A DNA stretch of 41,758 bases. Origin: Candidatus Didemnitutus sp. GTDB taxonomy: Bacteria; Verrucomicrobiota; Verrucomicrobiia; Opitutales; Opitutaceae. The stretch lies in contig JAUXXD010000071.1 of NCBI GenBank assembly GCA_030681265.1, positions 1 through 41,758 of the forward strand, in the 5' to 3' direction. Under the pieces are notes generated by a model. That model was not told the DNA's origin. It was given only the letters and a program-made list of their open reading frames with translations, and made no database searches. Position 1 is the stretch's first letter. Every line of letters begins with the position of its first letter. Below are positions 21,442 to 30,849 of this stretch, one piece after another. Made by a program: the position numbers and the translations under genes.

Positions 21442-24400
21442 TTAGAACTTGATGCGGATACCCGACTGAACTTGCCAGCGGGAGATCGGCGTGTCGTTCA
21501 CCGTGACCGGGACGCCGTTGAGCGTGGTCGTGTTGAACACGTAGTTCCACTGGCCCGCGCCGCCGTTACCCGCGGCGTTGTAGGACGCGTAAGCGACGGC
21601 GCGACGGAACGAGAACGGCACTTCTTCGAGCGAACCGAAGTTCTTGTCGAAGAGGTTCCAGAAGTTGAAGAAGTTCACGTAGAGTTCCGCGCGGAGGTTG
21701 CCGCGGATCGGAATGCGCTGGGTGAACTTCAAGTCGATCGTCTGGTTCCACGGGGAGGTTTCGCTGTTACGCGGGGCGTTTTTGCCGGCGTAGTTGGCGA
21801 GAGTGGAGCTATTGACGAAGGCGAAGAACGCATCGCGCTCAGTCGTGCTGGCCCAGTTCACGCGCGGATCGGTCGGACCGGTCGGCACGTAGAGCAGGTC
21901 GTTGAAGCCGTAGCCGTCGCCGTTGGCATCACCGTAGAACACCCACGAGTAGGGGCGGCCGGTGCGGCCTTGATAGACGACGGACACGGTGGTCGGGGCC
22001 TTCTTGATGAACTCGAACTGACGGGTGAGCGACAAGACGATACGATCCTTGATGGCTGTGTTCGAACGGGAGGCGACATCTTCGTTCGGGTTGAATGAAG
22101 CACGATTCTGGAAGTTCGAAGCCGCGACGGACGAGGTGACCGGGCTGACTTCGGACGCATCGCTGCGGGTCCAAGCGGCGGACCATGCCCACTTGTTCTT
22201 CATCGGACGGGCGAGGCTGAGCGTTACGCCATCGGAGTCACCCTTGCTGGTGTTCGTCATATAGAAGACGTCAGCGAAGGTGGAGACCCGGCGGCGACCG
22301 GCCGTGCTGGTGCTGGTCGTGGCGGTGGCCGACGTGGGGGTGCCGATGTAACGGACACGACCGTCGGGGAGAGTCAGCGGACCGGTGGTCGGGATGCCGA
22401 AGTTGAGGAATTCAACCTGCACGCCGCTCTCGACCACATTGTAGTAATACTCGAGGGAGAGCGTGATGTCGCCGAAGGGCAGCTTGTGGTCGACGGCGAT
22501 GTTCGACTTCCACAGCGCGGGCTGTTTGAAGTTCGGGTCAGTGATGTTGATGTTCGGCGTCGGCAACGTGCCGGCGGGAACCGGTTGGGTCGTGACGTTG
22601 GGCGAGAAGACCAAGGTGGGCAATTGACCGGAGGTGGCGTTCACGTTGGCGGTGGCACCGGCGTTGGAATACGCGTTCGAGATCCAGACGGCTGGGTTCT
22701 TGCCTTGGAACAGACCGACGCCACCGCGGATTTGGGTGCGGCGCTTCGTGTCCATGTCGAAGGTGAAGCCAATACGTGGGGCCAACGTAGCGTTGCCGCT
22801 GTTGGTCGTGTTGTTGGCGGTTACTGGGCTACCCGAAGCGGTTACGAAACCGGCAGTCGCGAAACCAGCCGCGATCGGAGGAGCCTCCGGAATATACGGA
22901 TAGTCGTAACGCAAGCCCGCCATGATAGTCAGGCGATGGTTGGGCTTCCACGTGTCCTGAAGGAAACCAGCATAAGCCGAGTAGCTCCAGCGGGCAATGG
23001 CGTCGTTCAGCGAGAAGCCAGGGAAAGGACGTTGCAGCGTGTAAGCCGTCGGAGGCGTGCCAGCGAGCCAGGTCGTTGGATTGGCAAAGGTGTAGACACC
23101 GTTGGTGGCCTGCACGAAGGCGTTTTGATACTCCGTTTCGATTTCTTCCAAACCGAAGGCGAGGGTGTGATCACCCATGGCGTATTCGGCCGAAATTTTC
23201 AATTGACGCTCCTTGGTGTCGAGGAAGTTCATTTGGCGGGAGGAGTCGGTGCCGAACACAACCGAGCCGCTGGTGACGGTGGCGCCGGTGTCAACGCGCG
23301 TGCCGGAGATACCTTGGACGGTGACCTGTGGGAACGGGCTGCCGTTCGGACGCGGGGAGCCGACGTAGGTGGTGTAGGAAGCGGTGACTTCGGTGCGGAA
23401 GTCGGGTGTCCATTGGCTGAAGAACTGCGCATTGTAGCTCTCGGTATTGCGCGGTTGTTGATACCAGATGCTGCTGAGCGAGGTGCCGGTGGTGCCGCCG
23501 AAACCGAAGAAGCTGGTGTCTTCGCCGTTGTTCTTGCGGTAAGTCAGCGTGGCGCGGTGGTTGTCGCTGATGTTCCAGTCGACCTTACCGATGTAGGTCT
23601 TCTGGAGGGCGAGGCTGGCGCCCGGGGGGCTGAGGGAGCCGGGATCGTAGCCCAGCGCTTTAGCGCGGGCGATGATCGAATCGATCTGCGCGAGGCCGGC
23701 GGCATTCGGGATGAAGTTGGCGGTCGGCGCGGCAGTCGTGCGCTCGAAATCATCATAGATGAGCGAGAAGAACAGCTTGTTGCGGATGAGCGGGCCGTTG
23801 AACGTGAAACCGAAGGTTTTTTCGTCGAACGCTTCGCGCACACCGCTGACGGGGTTCTTCTGCCGTTTGCTCTCGTCGGTCATTTCATAGTAGGCGCTGC
23901 CATGAAACTCGTTGGTGCCGGACTTGATGACGGCGTTCAACAGGGCGCCGGTGAAGCCCGCGCGCCGCACGTCGTAGGGGTTGAGTTCCACGGCGAGGCT
24001 TTGGATGGCCTCCATCGGGATCGGGCTACGTTGGGAAGAGAAACCGTTGCTGTTCAAACCGAACGAGTCGTCAGCGCGGACGCCGTCGATCAAGAGCGAG
24101 TTGAAGCGGAAGTTCTGACCTTGGGCGCTGAGTTGGCCGCCTTGGTCGAGGGAGCCGAGGAACATACGCGAGTCGAGCTGGGCGATGTCTTGGATGTTGC
24201 GGCGGACGGAAGTGACGTTGGCGATGTCTTCTTCGCCGAACGAGCTGCCGGTGCCCATCTTGCCCGTGCCGAACGTCGTGTCGCGATCTGCGGACACGGT
24301 GAAGGCATCGAGGGTGACGACGTCGGAGCCGAGCGTAAAATTCTCAGTGCTCGTTTGACCGAGTTCCAAGTAGATGTTGCTCTGGGAGGCGGGTTGATGA

Positions 24401-24672
24401 CCCACCGCGGTAACGCTGATGGTATAAGGACCGCCGATACGAAGACCGGACATGTTGTATTGTCCGTTAGCGCGAGTCGTGGACACCGCTTGGGTGCCCG
24501 ATGCTTCGTGAATGATCGTGACGGTGGCGCCGGAGATGGGCACGCCTTGGTTGGTGCTGACAAAGCCACTGAGCGACGAGGTCGTAAGACCTTGGGCCAG
24601 GGCGGAGGGGGCGATCGCGGCCATAACAATGGCAAACGCAAACGTCAGTAGCTTAACTAGCGGTTTATACAT
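21442..24672 (-). CDS. Oar-like TonB-dependent outer-membrane receptor
   Basis: A 1076-residue outer-membrane transporter. Signal peptide with cleavage expected after SALA (residue 26). Next comes a carboxypeptidase-regulatory-like beta-sandwich (LSGFVSTNQGVPISGATVTI ... YTISVTAVG), a plug domain (NVTSVRRNIQDIAQLDSR, LLIDGVRADDSFGLNSNG) and a long barrel ending in aromatic Phe. This is the Oar/CarboxypepD_reg type; ligands are typically large oligomers, but none can be inferred. Start at ATG 24672, because the upstream in-frame extension is Arg/Pro shadow without a signal. No TonB or ExbBD nearby. A paralogous tail remnant lies at 18826-18890. Confidence 0.92.
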   Translation of the reverse strand: MYKPLVKLLTFAFAIVMAAIAPSALAQGLTTSSLSGFVSTNQGVPISGATVTIIHEASGTQAVSTTRANGQYNMSGLRIGGPYTISVTAVGHQPASQSNIYLELGQTSTENFTLGSDVVTLDAFTVSADRDTTFGTGKMGTGSSFGEEDIANVTSVRRNIQDIAQLDSRMFLGSLDQGGQLSAQGQNFRFNSLLIDGVRADDSFGLNSNGFSSQRSPIPMEAIQSLAVELNPYDVRRAGFTGALLNAVIKSGTNEFHGSAYYEMTDESKRQKNPVSGVREAFDEKTFGFTFNGPLIRNKLFFSLIYDDFERTTAAPTANFIPNAAGLAQIDSIIARAKALGYDPGSLSPPGASLALQKTYIGKVDWNISDNHRATLTYRKNNGEDTSFFGFGGTTGTSLSSIWYQQPRNTESYNAQFFSQWTPDFRTEVTASYTTYVGSPRPNGSPFPQVTVQGISGTRVDTGATVTSGSVVFGTDSSRQMNFLDTKERQLKISAEYAMGDHTLAFGLEEIETEYQNAFVQATNGVYTFANPTTWLAGTPPTAYTLQRPFPGFSLNDAIARWSYSAYAGFLQDTWKPNHRLTIMAGLRYDYPYIPEAPPIAAGFATAGFVTASGSPVTANNTTNSGNATLAPRIGFTFDMDTKRRTQIRGGVGLFQGKNPAVWISNAYSNAGATANVNATSGQLPTLVFSPNVTTQPVPAGTLPTPNINITDPNFKQPALWKSNIAVDHKLPFGDITLSLEYYYNVVESGVQVEFLNFGIPTTGPLTLPDGRVRYIGTPTSATATTSTSTAGRRRVSTFADVFYMTNTSKGDSDGVTLSLARPMKNKWAWSAAWTRSDASEVSPVTSSVAASNFQNRASFNPNEDVASRSNTAIKDRIVLSLTRQFEFIKKAPTTVSVVYQGRTGRPYSWVFYGDANGDGYGFNDLLYVPTGPTDPRVNWASTTERDAFFAFVNSSTLANYAGKNAPRNSETSPWNQTIDLKFTQRIPIRGNLRAELYVNFFNFWNLFDKNFGSLEEVPFSFRRAVAYASYNAAGNGGAGQWNYVFNTTTLNGVPVTVNDTPISRWQVQSGIRIKF

Positions 24673-25376: not shown

Positions 25377-25484
25377 GATCAGTAGCGCCGCGTGCGTCGC
25401 CGTATTCGCTGTAGGGGCGGACCTTGTGTCCGCCCGCGTGCGCTACGAAATAAGCGCGGGCGTGGGCAAGCCACGCCCCTACAA
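25341..25484 (+). repeat. 144-bp direct repeat, copy 1 (includes the thioesterase 3' end)
   Basis: Matches 25541-25684 with three substitutions (25355, 25356, 25454) at an offset of exactly 200 bp. Copy 1 contains the last 11 sense codons and stop of the thioesterase plus a REP doublet at 25410-25483. The intervening 56 bp differ from what follows copy 2. The 25377-25724 gap holds these repeats and no gene. Confidence 0.95.
25410..25483. repeat. REP doublet (REPIN-like), copy 1
   Basis: Two REP-type hairpins face each other. The first is GTAG followed by GGGCGGAC-cttgt-GTCCGCCC. The second, on the opposite strand, is GTAG followed by GGGCGTGG-cttgc-CCACGCCC. The unit is bounded by TGTAGGGGCG/CGCCCCTACA. 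A GTAG head followed by a GC-rich hairpin is the known signature of REPs mobilised by RAYT transposases. No RAYT gene lies in the window. Confidence 0.8.
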
Positions 25485-25540
25485 GATGAGCGCTAGTGTG
25501 AGCAGGCCGCGCCGGACTCACGCGTAGACCGCAGATAATC

Positions 25541-25684
25541 TGCGCCGCGCCGCGCGCGAAGTGGACCGAGGCGTGAGATCAGTAGCGCCGCGTGCGTCGC
25601 CGTATTCGCTGTAGGGGCGGACCTTGTGTCCGCCCGCGTGCGCTACGAAATAAACGCGGGCGTGGGCAAGCCACGCCCCTACAA
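25541..25684 (+). repeat. 144-bp direct repeat, copy 2 (second REP doublet at 25610-25683)
   Basis: Second copy of 25341-25484. The duplicated thioesterase tail here is non-coding, which shows that the duplication moved gene sequence along with the REPIN. It ends about 40 bp before the stop of the minus-strand cyclase gene; the short stretch between also has a GTGAC/GTCAC hairpin. Confidence 0.95.
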
Positions 25685-25724
25685 AAGCAGCGTGAGTGAC
25701 GGCGCTGACGAGTCACGCTCCGGC

Positions 25725-27422
25725 TCAGGCGTCGACCGCGAAAATTTGCACGGACTCGGTCTTGCCTTTCACGACGACGCCGCCGAGCGGACGCAACGTC
25801 TCCCTCGTGGCCGCCGCTGTATGGGCGCTGACGATAATGCGCGTGGCGTAGGCCGGATCTTTCGTCAGTGCTTCGAGACGCGCGGCGAGATTCACGGAGT
25901 CGCCGACGACGGTGTAATTCAGGCGCGTCTTCGAACCCATGTTGCCGGCGATGACTTGCCCCGTGCTGATGCCGATGCCGAGCGCGAGGGTGGGTTTTCC
26001 TTCTGCCGCGAGTTCGCGATTAAGGACGACGAGCGCGACGGCCATCTCGCGCGCGGCGGCGACGGCGCGCGCGGCGGAATCTGCTTGCGCGACCGGTGCA
26101 CCGAAGAGCGCCATGACGGCATCGCCGATGTATTTATCGATCACGCCATGGTGTTTTTCCACCACCGCGCTCATCCGGTCGAGATACCGGTTGAGCAACG
26201 CGAGCAGTTCGGTCGGCGGCAGTTTTTCACTCAACGCAGTGAAGTCGCGCAGATCGGAAAAGAGGACGGTGACTTCGCGCACTTCGCCGCCGAGCTGCAG
26301 ATCAGACTGGAGCAACTGCGTCGCGATTTCCGGCGAGACAACTTTGCCGAGCAAGTCGCGCACGCGGTCGCGTTCGGCGAGGCCGGTGGTCATGTGGTTG
26401 AAGGCGTGGGCGAGGGCGCCGAATTCGTCGGCGCGGCGCAAATCGAGTTGGCGCGTGTAATCACCAGCGGCGACGTGTTGGGTGTGTGCGGCGAGTTGTT
26501 GCACAGGTCGGCTGACATTCCGCGCGAGACCGAGGGCGGCGAGGATGGCGATGACGAGGCCGATGATGGTGTCGTAGATGATGGTTTGCTCAAGCAGGCG
26601 CGAGGGCGCGAGTTGGACGCGGAGCGAGCGTTGCAACGCGATGCGGGCGGGCTCGGCACCTTCGAGGGGCAATATGCGGATCGCGGTGACGTAGTCCTCT
26701 TTCTGCAAGTGCATCAAGCGCGTGGCGGGGTTGGGGTCTTGGCGTGCCAATTCATCGGCGAGCGCAACGGGCATCGTGCTCGCGAGAATTTTCGCGTCCG
26801 CACCGCTGGAAAGAAAGGTCACTTCGACATCAGCACTCGCTTTTAATTCGGCCGCCGTCACGGCGTTGATGGGGAAACCGATGCCGACCCACGCGACGAC
26901 AATCGGTGGCGGTGCCAGCAGCGGCACGAGCACGATCTGGTGAAGTTCCCCGTCGAAGTAGCCGTAGCCCGAAGCTTGTTGCGCATCGGCGTTTTCGGCG
27001 GTGGCGATCAAGGCGTGAAACGGGGCCAAGTCCGCGCTGGAAATCATGCTGCGTGTGCCAGCGAGCACATCGCCCGTCGGATCGAGCAGCAGGATGAGCG
27101 GCGCCTGAATTCGGCCCTGATAAGAGGTGAGCGCGGAGCGCGCTGTTGGCCCACTGAACTCTTCCATAAGGAAGAGTTGTTTCATCGCGTAGTCGTTCGC
27201 CATCAGTCGCGCGGCGAGGAGTAAGGCTTCTTCGCGGCGATCGGCGGAGACTTGGAATTGGCGCGACGCGCGGTGGAGGGCGTCGTCGATCGTCGTGAGG
27301 GCGTTGGTGCGGTTGGCGTTGGAGACGATGACAAAGGTCGCCACTTGCAATGCCGCGACCAGGCCGACGATGAGCACGAGCAGTCGCGTGCGAAAATGGC
27401 GGAAGCGAAACCAGTTCGTCAT
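25725..27422 (-). CDS. Membrane sensor class III adenylate cyclase (extracytoplasmic sensor, HAMP, cyclase)
   Basis: A 565-residue cAMP-producing receptor. An N-terminal TM (LLVLIVGLVAALQVATFVIV), a periplasmic sensor region of about 240 residues, a second TM near 280, a HAMP linker (about 300-355, starting NVSRPVQQL) and a C-terminal cyclase domain. Metal-binding Asp residues are D390 (FSDLRDFT) and D434 (KYIGDAVMALFG). K430 and the Thr of NYTVVGDSVNL fit the ATP-specific Lys/Thr pair of bacterial cyclases. The start is ATG 27422; the longer frame overlaps the cupredoxin gene. Last gene of the esterase-barrel-cupredoxin-cyclase unit. Confidence 0.9.
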   Translation of the reverse strand: MTNWFRFRHFRTRLLVLIVGLVAALQVATFVIVSNANRTNALTTIDDALHRASRQFQVSADRREEALLLAARLMANDYAMKQLFLMEEFSGPTARSALTSYQGRIQAPLILLLDPTGDVLAGTRSMISSADLAPFHALIATAENADAQQASGYGYFDGELHQIVLVPLLAPPPIVVAWVGIGFPINAVTAAELKASADVEVTFLSSGADAKILASTMPVALADELARQDPNPATRLMHLQKEDYVTAIRILPLEGAEPARIALQRSLRVQLAPSRLLEQTIIYDTIIGLVIAILAALGLARNVSRPVQQLAAHTQHVAAGDYTRQLDLRRADEFGALAHAFNHMTTGLAERDRVRDLLGKVVSPEIATQLLQSDLQLGGEVREVTVLFSDLRDFTALSEKLPPTELLALLNRYLDRMSAVVEKHHGVIDKYIGDAVMALFGAPVAQADSAARAVAAAREMAVALVVLNRELAAEGKPTLALGIGISTGQVIAGNMGSKTRLNYTVVGDSVNLAARLEALTKDPAYATRIIVSAHTAAATRETLRPLGGVVVKGKTESVQIFAVDA

Positions 27423-27462
27423 CGGCGCATGGGGTGGGGCATCGGAGACAGTCTGCGTTACC

Positions 27463-28098
27463 TCAGTAGCCGCCAGTTTTCCCTTCGAGCGTGCGGCGGA
27501 TACGGCGGTCGGGTTTGAGCGTGAGACGATATTCGAGCGGACCGACGCCGTCGGCAAAAGTGACTTCCTGGATCTGCGGCGCACTGAGGCGCGGATGCCA
27601 GACCTCGACACGGTAGCGACCGCTTGGCGCGATAAGTTGCGCAGTGCCGGTGGCGTCTGTTTTGGCGAAATGCGGCGTGGGCAACACGACGATGTAGGCG
27701 ATCATCCAATCGTGAATATTGCAGCCGAGCGTGATGATGCCCGGATGATCGAAGAGCACGGATTCATGCGCGCCGGGCGCGTAGAGCGGTTTCTCGAAAC
27801 GCTTCGCTTTCGAGAGCGAGTAGATATGGTGCTGAATGTCGTCACGATTGGGAAACTCAATGACCGTGCCGACGCGAATGACGGTGACGTAGGGCGTGTA
27901 TTCCTGGTCCTGCTGGCTGATTTCAATCAGAGGCTGGTCGGCGGCGGGCGAGGAGACGGCGCCATCGAGCGCGTAGAGCGCGATCACCGCATCCGGCACC
28001 GCTGCGCCTTTCGCGTCTTTGATCACCGCACTCACCGTAGTGGCTGCGGTGGCGCGGAGGGTGAGCAGGCAGAGCGAAAGCAAAAGGAGGCGGATCAT
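27463..28098 (-). CDS. Periplasmic cupredoxin-like protein (methylamine-utilisation-type)
   Basis: A 211-residue exported protein. Signal peptide IRLLLLSLCLLTLRATA, then a carboxypeptidase-regulatory-like start (VSAVIKDAKGAAVPDAVI) and a plastocyanin-type copper site: H90 or H91 (DDIQHHIYS), C126, H129 and M132 (GCNIHDWM). The C-terminal SGRYRVEVWHPRL is another beta motif. These proteins are often labelled methylamine utilisation proteins, but no mau genes are present; a copper- or redox-binding sensory partner is more likely here. It sits between the barrel (7 bp) and the cyclase (40 bp). Confidence 0.85.
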   Translation of the reverse strand: MIRLLLLSLCLLTLRATAATTVSAVIKDAKGAAVPDAVIALYALDGAVSSPAADQPLIEISQQDQEYTPYVTVIRVGTVIEFPNRDDIQHHIYSLSKAKRFEKPLYAPGAHESVLFDHPGIITLGCNIHDWMIAYIVVLPTPHFAKTDATGTAQLIAPSGRYRVEVWHPRLSAPQIQEVTFADGVGPLEYRLTLKPDRRIRRTLEGKTGGY

Positions 28099-28105
28099 GG
28101 GAAAC

Positions 28106-28975
28106 CTAAAAGCGATGCAACACACCGAGTGACACAACCGAGGTGTTATAGCGAACATCGATACGGTTCACCACGCGCGCACTTTCATAGCGCAACGGAA
28201 TGCGCGTGCGGTCGTTCAAGGTGAATGACGCCTCTGTCCACCAGAAATCTGCCGTGCAATCGACGCGGTAAGCGACCCACCCGGGACCGAAGGTGTGTGA
28301 AATTTCCCAAGGGATGCTGTTGTAATAACTGCTCACGACGGGACCAAATCCCCCGGCAATCGCCTGACTCCAGATCGGCCAAGCCGCATTGGCGACGAGG
28401 CGGCCCCACTGGCGCGCGGCACCGGCACTGAGGGTCAAGCGCTCGCTGGCGTGCCAATGCGTTTCCACAGCGAAACGGCGATGTTGAATATCGAACGTGG
28501 TGTGCGACGCGTCGAATTTCTCCCAGCTACCCGATGCGCCAATCCGCCACTCGGGTGTCAGCCGTTTACTGACCGCTAGCGTCGCCTCGCTGCGCCAACC
28601 GCTCCGGCCGTGCTCGCGAAAGGCGACGCGCGCCACGCCCGCGCTGAGATCCACGACTGGCGCCATCGGGCCGAGGCCGAATTTGCGCCGCAAGGTGAGT
28701 TGTCCGTGCGCGTTGACCTGATCCAGCGCGCGGTAATCCGGCACGTGTTCGAATCCCGCATCGAGCTCCGCCAGTAGCAGCCAGCGGGAATTGAGCTGCC
28801 GCGCGTGTGCCGCGAAGCCGTGCGCGGTGTAAATCGTGGCCTCGCGAATCGTCGGCGCATGCGACGTGCGGCTATAGTTTTCCGCCCACGCGACCGACGC
28901 CTGCATCCGGTAATCGACCGCGAGCAGCGGCAGCGGCGCGAGGGCGAGCCAGAGAAGCGACCAACGCGCGCGCAT
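28106..28975 (-). CDS. Outer-membrane beta-barrel protein, function unknown
   Basis: A 289-residue protein with signal peptide ending LPLLA, alternating hydrophobic/polar strands throughout (for example RLTLSAGAARQWG, TRIPLRYESARV) and a terminal VLHRF whose Phe fits the BAM recognition rule. No named family recognised. The start codon overlaps the stop of the upstream esterase as TGATG, so translation is probably coupled. The cupredoxin gene follows at 7 bp. Confidence 0.75.
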   Translation of the reverse strand: MRARWSLLWLALAPLPLLAVDYRMQASVAWAENYSRTSHAPTIREATIYTAHGFAAHARQLNSRWLLLAELDAGFEHVPDYRALDQVNAHGQLTLRRKFGLGPMAPVVDLSAGVARVAFREHGRSGWRSEATLAVSKRLTPEWRIGASGSWEKFDASHTTFDIQHRRFAVETHWHASERLTLSAGAARQWGRLVANAAWPIWSQAIAGGFGPVVSSYYNSIPWEISHTFGPGWVAYRVDCTADFWWTEASFTLNDRTRIPLRYESARVVNRIDVRYNTSVVSLGVLHRF

Positions 28976-29616
28976 CAGAGGAGCGGAGCCAGGGTTTGCC
29001 AGACGGTATCGGCGACAAGGCGGTGGCCCTCGACCGTCGGGTGAATGCCGTCGGGCAGATTCAATTCCGGCACGCCGCCGACGCCTTCCAAGAGAAACGG
29101 AATCAGCGGAATTTGATTTTTCTCGGCGAGGCGCGGGAAAATCTCCGCAAAAGCGGTCGAGTAGTCGGTGCCCATATTCGTGGGGATTTGGAGACCGGTG
29201 AGCACGATGAGAATCTGCGGATTCTTGGCGCGAATCCGCTCAATCATCAACTGAAGGTTCGTCTCCGTGACGCCGGACGGTGTGCCGCGCAATCCGTCGT
29301 TGCCGCCGAGCTCGAGCACGAAGACATCGACCGGTTGCCGCAAAATCCAATCGATGCGCCGCAGTCCGCCCGCGGTGGTTTCGCCGCTGAGGCCGGCGTT
29401 GACGACGCGCCATTTGCCGGGTTGCGCCTCGTCGAGCCGTTGTTGGATCAGCGCGGGATAAGCGTCGTGAGGGTCAATGCCGTAGCCCGCCGTGAGGCTG
29501 TCGCCGAAGAAGAGCAGGGTCTTCGGCTCGGCCGCCCACGCGGCGACGCCGAGCAGCAGGGCGACCGCCGTGGCGGCGAACCGTCCGGCCCCTCGAAATC
29601 GCCATTCGTCGAACAT
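28975..29616 (-). CDS. SGNH/GDSL arylesterase/lysophospholipase, TesA-like
   Basis: A 213-residue exported esterase. Signal peptide up to AAWAA, block I FFGDSLTAGYG with nucleophile S40, block III GGND, block V DGIHP with the Asp-His pair. TesA of E. coli is a periplasmic thioesterase/lysophospholipase/arylesterase of this type and is divergent from ybbA-ybbP, exactly as here. Start at ATG 29616 gives a clean signal peptide; upstream ATGs at 29637 and 29655 are possible. Head of the minus-strand unit leading to the cyclase. Confidence 0.88.
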   Translation of the reverse strand: MFDEWRFRGAGRFAATAVALLLGVAAWAAEPKTLLFFGDSLTAGYGIDPHDAYPALIQQRLDEAQPGKWRVVNAGLSGETTAGGLRRIDWILRQPVDVFVLELGGNDGLRGTPSGVTETNLQLMIERIRAKNPQILIVLTGLQIPTNMGTDYSTAFAEIFPRLAEKNQIPLIPFLLEGVGGVPELNLPDGIHPTVEGHRLVADTVWQTLAPLL

Positions 29617-29665
29617 CTTTGCTCTTTTGCCCAGCATGACTGTGTTACTTCGCATCCTGCCATTC

Positions 29666-30358
29666 ATGAGTGTCAAATCTATCCTGAAAGTCGAGCGCCT
29701 CACCAAGTCTTATCCTACCGCCGTGGGCGAACTCACCGTGCTGAAAGAAGTCAGCTTCGCGCTCGAACCGGGAGCGACCTGCGCTATCGTCGGTCCGTCC
29801 GGCAGCGGCAAGACCACGTTGCTCGGCCTCTGCGCCGGTCTCGATCAACCGAGTGGTGGCAGCGTGCAACTCGCGGGTCGCGAAATCGGCCATCTTTCCG
29901 AAGACGAGCGCGCCGCCGTGCGCAACGCGGAGATCGGTTTCGTGTTCCAGAATTTTCAATTGATTCCCACGCTCACGGCGTTGGAAAACGTGCTCGTGCC
30001 GCTCGAATTGCGCGGCGAATCCGGTCGCGAGGAAGCCGCCACGGCGTTGCTCGCACGCGTCGGTTTGGGCGATCGTCTCGACCATTACCCGATGCAACTT
30101 TCCGGCGGCGAACAGCAACGCGTGGCGCTGGCGCGCGCGTTCATCAATGAGCCGCACATTCTCTTCTGCGATGAACCGACGGGCAACCTCGACGGCGACA
30201 CGGCGCACGCGATGGTGGAGCTCATCTTCGGCCTCAACCGCGAGCGCGGCACGACGCTCGTGCTCGTGACGCACGACCTCGAACTCGCGCGCAAGACCCA
30301 ACGCATTATCCGCCTTCGCAACGGCGGCGTCATCTCCGACGAACGCACCACCCACTGA
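29666..30358 (+). CDS. ybbA: ABC transporter ATP-binding protein, YbbA/LolD type
   Basis: A 230-residue ATPase. Walker A GPSGSGKTT, Q-loop FVFQNFQ, signature LSGGEQQR, Walker [13 protein letters not shown], switch His in VTHD. Together with the large FtsX permease downstream it matches YbbA-YbbP, an ABC pair without a known substrate-binding protein, thought to act on the envelope. ATG 29666 leaves about 50 bp to the divergent esterase. The partner permease is separated by the GxxExxY element. Confidence 0.9.
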   Translation: MSVKSILKVERLTKSYPTAVGELTVLKEVSFALEPGATCAIVGPSGSGKTTLLGLCAGLDQPSGGSVQLAGREIGHLSEDERAAVRNAEIGFVFQNFQLIPTLTALENVLVPLELRGESGREEAATALLARVGLGDRLDHYPMQLSGGEQQRVALARAFINEPHILFCDEPTGNLDGDTAHAMVELIFGLNRERGTTLVLVTHDLELARKTQRIIRLRNGGVISDERTTH

Positions 30359-30402: not shown

Positions 30403-30849
30403 GCCCACGGAATACACGGAACGCACAGAAGGAGTGACCATGAACAAACTGATTCACGAAGAACTGACGTATAAAATCCTCGGCGCGTGCTTTGAGGTTT
30501 ATCGCGAGAAGGGGTGCGGATTTCTTGAGGGTGTTTATCAGGAATGCCTCGAACTTGAGTTTGATCTGCAGGGTTTGCCGGCGCGATCACTCGTGCAGAT
30601 TCCGCTCAGCTACAAAGGTCGCCCGCTCACCAAAACTTACATCGCGGACTTCGTCTGCTTTGGCCAAGTGCTGCTCGAATTGAAAGCGGTGAGTGCATTA
30701 ACCGACGAACACCGCGCCCAAGTTCAAAATTATCTGCACGCTACCGGGCTGCGCGTCGGCTTGCTCGTGAATTTTGGTCATTTTCCGAAAATAGAGCACG
30801 AGCGCTTCGTCCTCTGAATCCTTCCGTGTATTCCGTGTGTTCCGTGGGC
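30403..30849 (+). mobile_element. Compact GxxExxY element with 31-bp inverted-repeat ends
   Basis: Ends 30403-30433 and 30819-30849 are inverted copies with 27 of 31 bases matching; each is built from a CCACGGAA-type word with a period of about 9-10 bases. They enclose a single gene with almost no spare DNA: 6 bp before its ATG and 1 bp after its stop. It sits between an ABC ATPase and its permease, which are normally adjacent, so it looks inserted. No target duplication could be assigned by eye. Confidence 0.65.
30440..30817 (+). CDS. GxxExxY protein (PD-(D/E)XK nuclease-like)
   Basis: A 125-residue protein. The name-giving motif is visible as G-F-L-E-G-V-Y in GCGFLEGVYQE. Later YIADFVCFGQVLLELKAV gives the D...E-x-K spacing of the PD-(D/E)XK nuclease fold, and RVGLLVNFG is the typical C-terminal strand. 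Biochemical function of the family is unknown to me; a nuclease-like fold is the usual inference. It has a strong AGGAG ribosome site 5 bp before ATG 30440 while its neighbours have none, and its base composition is less GC-rich; both suggest foreign origin. Confidence 0.88.
   Translation: MNKLIHEELTYKILGACFEVYREKGCGFLEGVYQECLELEFDLQGLPARSLVQIPLSYKGRPLTKTYIADFVCFGQVLLELKAVSALTDEHRAQVQNYLHATGLRVGLLVNFGHFPKIEHERFVL

Follow-up and report, generated by a model that had tools for sequence, protein, structure and literature searches.

The YfiBNR and HmsCDE systems are relays that run from the outer membrane through the periplasm to the inner membrane and act on cyclic di-GMP (c-di-GMP) (PMC2837407, PMC3375315, PMC4655355, PMC5550408), and HmsC responds to the redox environment (PMC4655355, PMC5550408). 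By analogy, and with unrelated parts, they appear to be the closest functional likeness to three genes present in a 41,758-nucleotide stretch of DNA from Candidatus Didemnitutus sp. (GenBank assembly GCA_030681265.1, contig JAUXXD010000071.1, positions 1 to 41,758; referred to as the window), which code for a predicted outer-membrane β-barrel, a periplasmic cupredoxin and an inner-membrane sensor adenylate cyclase. In both cases an outer-membrane part, a periplasmic regulator and an inner-membrane second-messenger enzyme are encoded together, but the window has a cupredoxin in the periplasm, a 12-stranded barrel as the outer part and an output of the cyclic AMP (cAMP) type. None of the three window proteins matched the YfiBNR or HmsCDE sequence families in a Pfam scan, and the YfiR/HmsC-like family PF13689 had no match in the trio, although the same library detects it in another locus of our set (L186). 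A diguanylate cyclase output is not in the window, which has a Guanylate_cyc domain instead, while GGDEF-EAL outputs are found in relatives. The trio is an uncharacterised signalling module, and a real, conserved one that recurs in several phyla.

The module belongs to a run of four genes on the minus strand (25725-29616), with the coordinates and spacing given in a preliminary description of this DNA. Its first gene codes for a TesA-like esterase, whose stop codon shares TGATG with the ATG of the barrel gene; 7 base pairs (bp) separate barrel and cupredoxin, and 40 bp separate cupredoxin and cyclase. This coupling is not due to chance, because the order of the trio and its tight spacing recur in many Opitutaceae and Chthoniobacterales genomes. 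A scan of 25400-29900 for sigma-70-like promoters found 0 against 0.8 expected by chance, a result that is little informative for this phylum. The preliminary description had named an outer-membrane barrel, a copper-type periplasmic protein and a sensor cyclase with two transmembrane (TM) segments as parts of an envelope signalling module, and the gene-neighbourhood comparison that it proposed found the trio conserved strongly and across phyla.

The cupredoxin was found by homology search in 18 of 132 genomes of the order, and a scan of GTDB genomes provided 80 further loci, to which plasmid cases from Caballeronia, Comamonas and Novosphingobium were added (genes in the relatives' loci were called by script). 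Cupredoxin, sensor and barrel lie in one directon in most loci. A signalling protein of the dCache/HAMP type is encoded at most three genes from the cupredoxin in 89 of the 97 loci with usable flanks, whereas none of the 447 genes that lie further off than four positions passes the same test, whose models were built from these sensors and so gauge this sensor family and not all sensors. These 97 loci belong to Verrucomicrobiota, Alpha-, Beta- and Gammaproteobacteria, Rokubacteria and Desulfuromonadaceae, and 14 of the 23 loci of the close Verrucomicrobiota set have a gap of 1-12 bp between cupredoxin and cyclase. The module is common in Opitutaceae, where some relative of the cupredoxin is present in 102/200 genomes and its close form (our own cut, E below 1e-44) in 65/200.

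The sensors share a dCache_3-HAMP front end and differ in their output, which is a class III cyclase, a GGDEF-EAL pair or a histidine kinase. Among 47 of them, dCache_3 was detected in 39 and HAMP in 46, and the output domains were GGDEF (28), EAL (26), cyclase (18) and HisKA (3). On the tree of input domains a single clade for the cyclase-type inputs was rejected (approximately unbiased test, p-AU 0.0021), with the caveat that long branches meet at that point, and the periplasmic positions D77, T93, S96, R104, P171 and W178 are conserved across all outputs pooled. Evolutionary distances of the cupredoxin correlate with those of the sensor input (Spearman 0.79) and of the barrel (0.76), values reached by 0/500 permutations in each case; since shared ancestry alone raises such correlations, they are therefore taken as a sign of co-inheritance rather than of contact. 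The pairing of a single front end with outputs of three kinds constitutes a natural experiment on what dCache_3 senses.

The cupredoxin (27463..28098, minus strand, 211 amino acids (aa)) has a signal peptide, a plastocyanin/amicyanin-like domain and a basic tail. Its Pfam matches, to Cupredoxin_1 and CarboxypepD_reg, are weak and each under the cut-off. The AlphaFold2 (AF2) model, made with 71 homologues, has a predicted local distance difference test (pLDDT) score of 90, and the domain at aa ~54-139 matches plastocyanin, amicyanin, the Nitrosopumilus purple cupredoxin and NirK with Z ~12 (5fc9 is among the matches, also at Z ~12). The type-1 ligand set is complete (His90, Cys126, His129 and Met132), and the same four residues are found in 14/14 sequences from plain homology searches and in 71/71 of a wider set, the latter count being partly so by construction, because the search for the wider loci used peptide patterns that cover the copper motif. 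The CNIHDWM loop is highly conserved together with the ligands. By its modelled fold and its ligands the protein is a type-1 cupredoxin, for which copper binding is predicted. Its C-terminal part resembles CarboxypepD_reg with a score under the cut-off (the similar segments are aa ~19-43 and ~144-192), and because the strands that precede the copper domain resemble the opposite end of this CarboxypepD_reg-like domain, the copper domain apparently lies inserted within it. The C-terminal tail terminates in GGY and is modelled with low confidence, as expected for a free tail. Tyrosine occupies one of the final two residues in 46/46 cupredoxins that accompany a family-A barrel (the family of the window barrel) and in 9/9 that accompany a 410-aa barrel, as against 0/18 with DUF3034 and globin and 2/10 with porins (kinship ignored in all these counts), and it is possible that the Tyr-ending tail is a docking tail. 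A matching of charges between tail and barrel was also considered and dropped, no such pattern being seen.

Two unusual relatives were observed. In one (L027:1505-2557) the cupredoxin carries an N-terminal cytochrome c'-like domain (PF01322, E 2.4e-4, with CxxCH), and the fusion gene sits between a porin-like gene and that of a HAMP-type kinase. In the other (L039:7267-8619) the N-terminus of a porin is fused in-frame to the second half of a cupredoxin, and either a deletion or a misassembly may be the cause.

The barrel (28106..28975, minus strand, 289 aa, with a signal peptide assigned by eye) has no Pfam family of its own, although 10 of its 42 aligned relatives match OMP_b-brl. Its AF2 model, made with these 42 homologues, has 12 strands and a mean pLDDT of 95.6, and on this model the protein is predicted to be an outer-membrane β-barrel. 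Structural matches to KdgM and the COG4313 channel (Z 19) show a common porin-like fold that gives no function. Assignment to DUF3034 was rejected, because PF11231 is unmatched by the window barrel and by the 42 members of the alignment, and hhalign gave a probability of 0.4 on a 0-100 scale. Counted by locus, the barrels are of family A (46), DUF3034 (14, the type associated with a truncated haemoglobin) or the 410-aa type (10), plus Porin_O_P-like porins, and no kinship between DUF3034 and family A is detectable. A path for copper through the barrel was dropped as a candidate, no His, Cys or Met being conserved at the thresholds used. The host codes for a second family-A paralogue (L185:6270-7112, G000:C86), with no cupredoxin nearby, and another paralogue (L186:3379-7709) stands beside genes for a YfiR/HmsC-like protein (PF13689), a CHASE8-HAMP hybrid kinase and a TonB-dependent receptor.

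The cyclase (25725..27422, minus strand, 565 aa) is composed of an N-terminal TM segment, a periplasmic dCache_3 domain (aa 46-247; E 7.9e-6, 26.1 bits for a cut-off of 25.7), a second TM segment, a HAMP domain (aa 299-348; E 4e-16, 59.5 bits for a cut-off of 25) and a class III catalytic domain (aa 382-557; Guanylate_cyc, PF00211, E 6.6e-25). The catalytic set is complete (D390, K430, D434, T504, N511 and R515), and D, K, D, T/S, N and R are kept in 16/16 cyclases, with T or S at 504. Judged from these residues, the window protein is a putative class III cyclase, of the IIIb type by its Lys/Thr pair, and ATP is favoured as its substrate, with cAMP as the product. Direct metal sensing by dCache_3 was also considered and dropped, because at the thresholds used none of the His, Cys or Met positions of this domain was seen to be conserved.

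The reading that we prefer, with little more than even confidence, is that barrel, cupredoxin and cyclase act together as a single relay that carries a signal across the envelope, the cyclase being set by the copper or redox state of the cupredoxin. The data show the gene linkage, the shared dCache_3-HAMP input with its varying outputs, the intact residues of the catalytic and copper sites, the folds as predicted and the co-divergence; we infer that the site holds copper, that the proteins touch, what the signal is and which part controls which, as follows. The barrel would admit or anchor something in the outer membrane; the periplasmic cupredoxin, with its type-1 copper site, would report the copper or redox state, or a gas or ligand altering that state, and would dock on dCache_3 of the inner-membrane protein; HAMP would then hand the change to the class IIIb-type adenylate cyclase, setting the level of cAMP. 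Other lineages would use this front end to act on c-di-GMP enzymes or on a histidine kinase. Three points favour copper or redox as the signal: the conservation of the ligands; the presence of haem proteins as partners in relatives (the cytochrome c'-like fusion of L027 and a globin that bears a signal peptide); and the surroundings of the second cupredoxin module of the host (L022: response regulator, cupredoxin, histidine kinase and porin), which has ApbE, redoxin and DUF4266 genes just upstream. The preliminary description had proposed a copper, redox or lipid signal to cAMP; copper or redox is plausible in view of the intact site and of these partners, and nothing was found in favour of a lipid.

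Several observations weigh against such a relay. By the test used, a sensor at most three genes from the cupredoxin is missing in 8 of the 97 loci whose flanks are usable, and both this test and the count of copper ligands in the wider set are in part tied to the way in which they were built. The lack of conserved His, Met or Cys in the barrel and in dCache_3 leaves neither a conserved copper path through the former nor a conserved copper relay to the latter, and no complementarity of net charge was seen between cupredoxin tail and barrel. In addition, some barrel relatives stand alone, with no cupredoxin (L185 and L187). The barrel family varies by lineage, so that the barrel may be a generic pore. 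A wider proposal is tentative, and we hold it as possible but doubtful: a class of envelope sensors found across phyla would take as its signal the redox state or copper loading of a type-1 copper protein; the Tyr-ending tail would dock on a dedicated outer-membrane barrel and the copper face on dCache_3, and evolution would have joined this one front end to cAMP, c-di-GMP and phosphorelay outputs.

Among the alternatives, the one that survives best, although we regard it as rather unlikely, is that a small molecule admitted by the barrel binds dCache_3, the cupredoxin being an accessory (for ligand delivery, copper supply or folding) whose copper redox state is not the signal. Small ligands are common partners of dCache domains, a set of dCache_3 positions is kept across all outputs, and the barrel fold resembles those of the small-solute channels KdgM, COG4313 and CymA. 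However, the copper ligands and the CNIHDWM loop of the supposed accessory are strongly conserved, and of all partners the cupredoxin is the one kept most constantly, whereas the barrel differs in family, yet this last point is tempered by the fact that the loci were picked by their cupredoxin.

It is unlikely that the module is a sensor of NO or O2, in which the gas would bind to the copper site or to a haem protein and the state would reach the sensor through the cupredoxin or the globin. A periplasmic group-1 truncated haemoglobin with a signal peptide stands beside the cupredoxin in 18 loci, and the CxxCH-bearing fusion in L027 points in the same direction, but no haem protein is present in the window module and none was seen in the other Verrucomicrobiota loci with a family-A barrel, and the usual role of type-1 copper sites is that of electron carriers. 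Even less probable is a cluster for copper acquisition or homeostasis, in which barrel and cupredoxin would carry copper and the cyclase would merely regulate them; the cupredoxin fold with its full ligand set fits this role, and the outer-membrane copper protein PcoB is in the structural list of the barrel, low and among many barrels, but the barrel has no conserved His, Met or Cys and the recurrent neighbour clusters hold no recognised copper-handling gene. A chance assembly of four unrelated genes, or a unit that includes the esterase, is very improbable, since despite the TGATG overlap and a tesA-barrel pair that persists without cupredoxin and cyclase (L187), Chthoniobacterales keep the trio without the esterase, Proteobacteria keep cupredoxin, barrel and sensor, and the frequency of the sensor (89/97 loci) already contradicts chance for the trio.

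On the side of the output of the preferred relay, the host codes for two class III cyclases and for two proteins that bind cyclic nucleotide monophosphates (cNMP), a Crp/Fnr-type regulator and an NrfD-like membrane protein (L197:7398-9134, G000:C161). The latter has a cyclic-nucleotide-binding domain inserted at residues ~244-394 that retains the FGEL...PR.A signature (read by eye), and NrfD of other Opitutaceae is found without this insert. The close form of the module co-occurs with NrfD-cNMP (Fisher p 0.018 against plain-NrfD genomes and 0.004 against all others, in a post hoc comparison that ignores kinship), an association that serves as a lead only. Direct cAMP control of an electron-transfer complex through the NrfD-like protein is possible.

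The preliminary description had counted the esterase (28975..29616, minus strand, 213 aa) as a fourth member of the unit, and this part of it did not stand. The protein matches Lipase_GDSL_2 (PF13472, E 1.9e-32) and PRK10528, the E. coli TesA type, with 150 bits, under the equivalog cut-off of 270, and is by these matches a TesA homologue. Its gene is divergent from those of a YbbA-like ABC ATPase (29666..30358, plus strand), which also lies outside the module, and a YbbP-like protein (from 30877, plus strand), and tesA divergent from ybbA and ybbP is an arrangement known from E. coli. The difference lies in the trio placed directly downstream of tesA in Opitutia, an association that is positional here: the esterase adjoins the trio in 14 loci, in Opitutia only, and Chthoniobacterales and proteobacterial loci carry the trio or its parts without it, which ruled it out as a part of the module. 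A 125-aa GxxExxY-like protein is encoded between ybbA and ybbP (30440-30817), and similar ones occupy that place in loci of other Opitutaceae (L023, L024 and L192-L194).

On the other side of the module, downstream of the cyclase, there are two copies of a palindromic dispersed repeat, TGTAGGGGCGGACCTTGTGTCCGCC...CCACGCCCCTACA (25400-25498 and 25600-25698; 99 nucleotides, 94% identical); the genome holds 12 such sites at <=2 mismatches, and the repeat is REP/MITE-like. Beside the module, 21442-24624 codes for a large TonB-receptor-like protein with a CarboxypepD_reg-like N-terminal stretch, and module neighbours of 1085-1117 aa occur in L024, L025, L049, L050 and L058.

To our knowledge, a blue-copper protein as a dedicated input to a second messenger would be new, blue-copper proteins being known as electron carriers, and we know of little study of cAMP signalling in Verrucomicrobiota. 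No paper describing this composition was found in the open-access literature, subscription journals being mostly outside the scope of the search. The dCache_3 domain was defined in a 2016 survey that lists only 4 adenylate/guanylate cyclases with it (PMC4822843), and in Pseudoalteromonas marina, CdgD, a protein with dCache_3, GGDEF and EAL, affects c-di-GMP levels (PMC11190208). Relatives of the cupredoxin are named 'methylamine utilization protein' in databases, which is misleading; Burkholderia pseudomallei induces a protein alike by name, BPSS0404, when inside macrophages (PMC3418162). The methylamine dehydrogenase families PF02975 and PF06433 had no match in the host genome, yet the control genomes were also silent.

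The clusters annotated under this name, such as that of Caballeronia sp. Sq4a (NZ_CP084253.1), have a homologous cupredoxin (~41% identity) whose gene directly precedes one for a GGDEF-EAL sensor belonging to the same cluster of sensors, and the same directon codes for a DUF3034 protein and for a group 1 truncated hemoglobin that bears a signal peptide; they differ from the window in their output, which is not an adenylate cyclase, and in an outer protein of another family, and are known by annotation only, the papers found giving them no function. Amicyanin and plastocyanin share with the window protein the fold (Z ~12) and the C-x2-H-x2-M loop spacing, which is that of amicyanin, but the window domain apparently lies within a CarboxypepD_reg-like domain and has signalling genes alongside instead of a dehydrogenase or a photosystem. 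Finally, the HAMP-bearing class IIIb adenylate cyclases have the same catalytic D, K, D, T/S, N and R and the HAMP domain, and the window cyclase differs from them in a dCache_3 input coupled to a cupredoxin gene.

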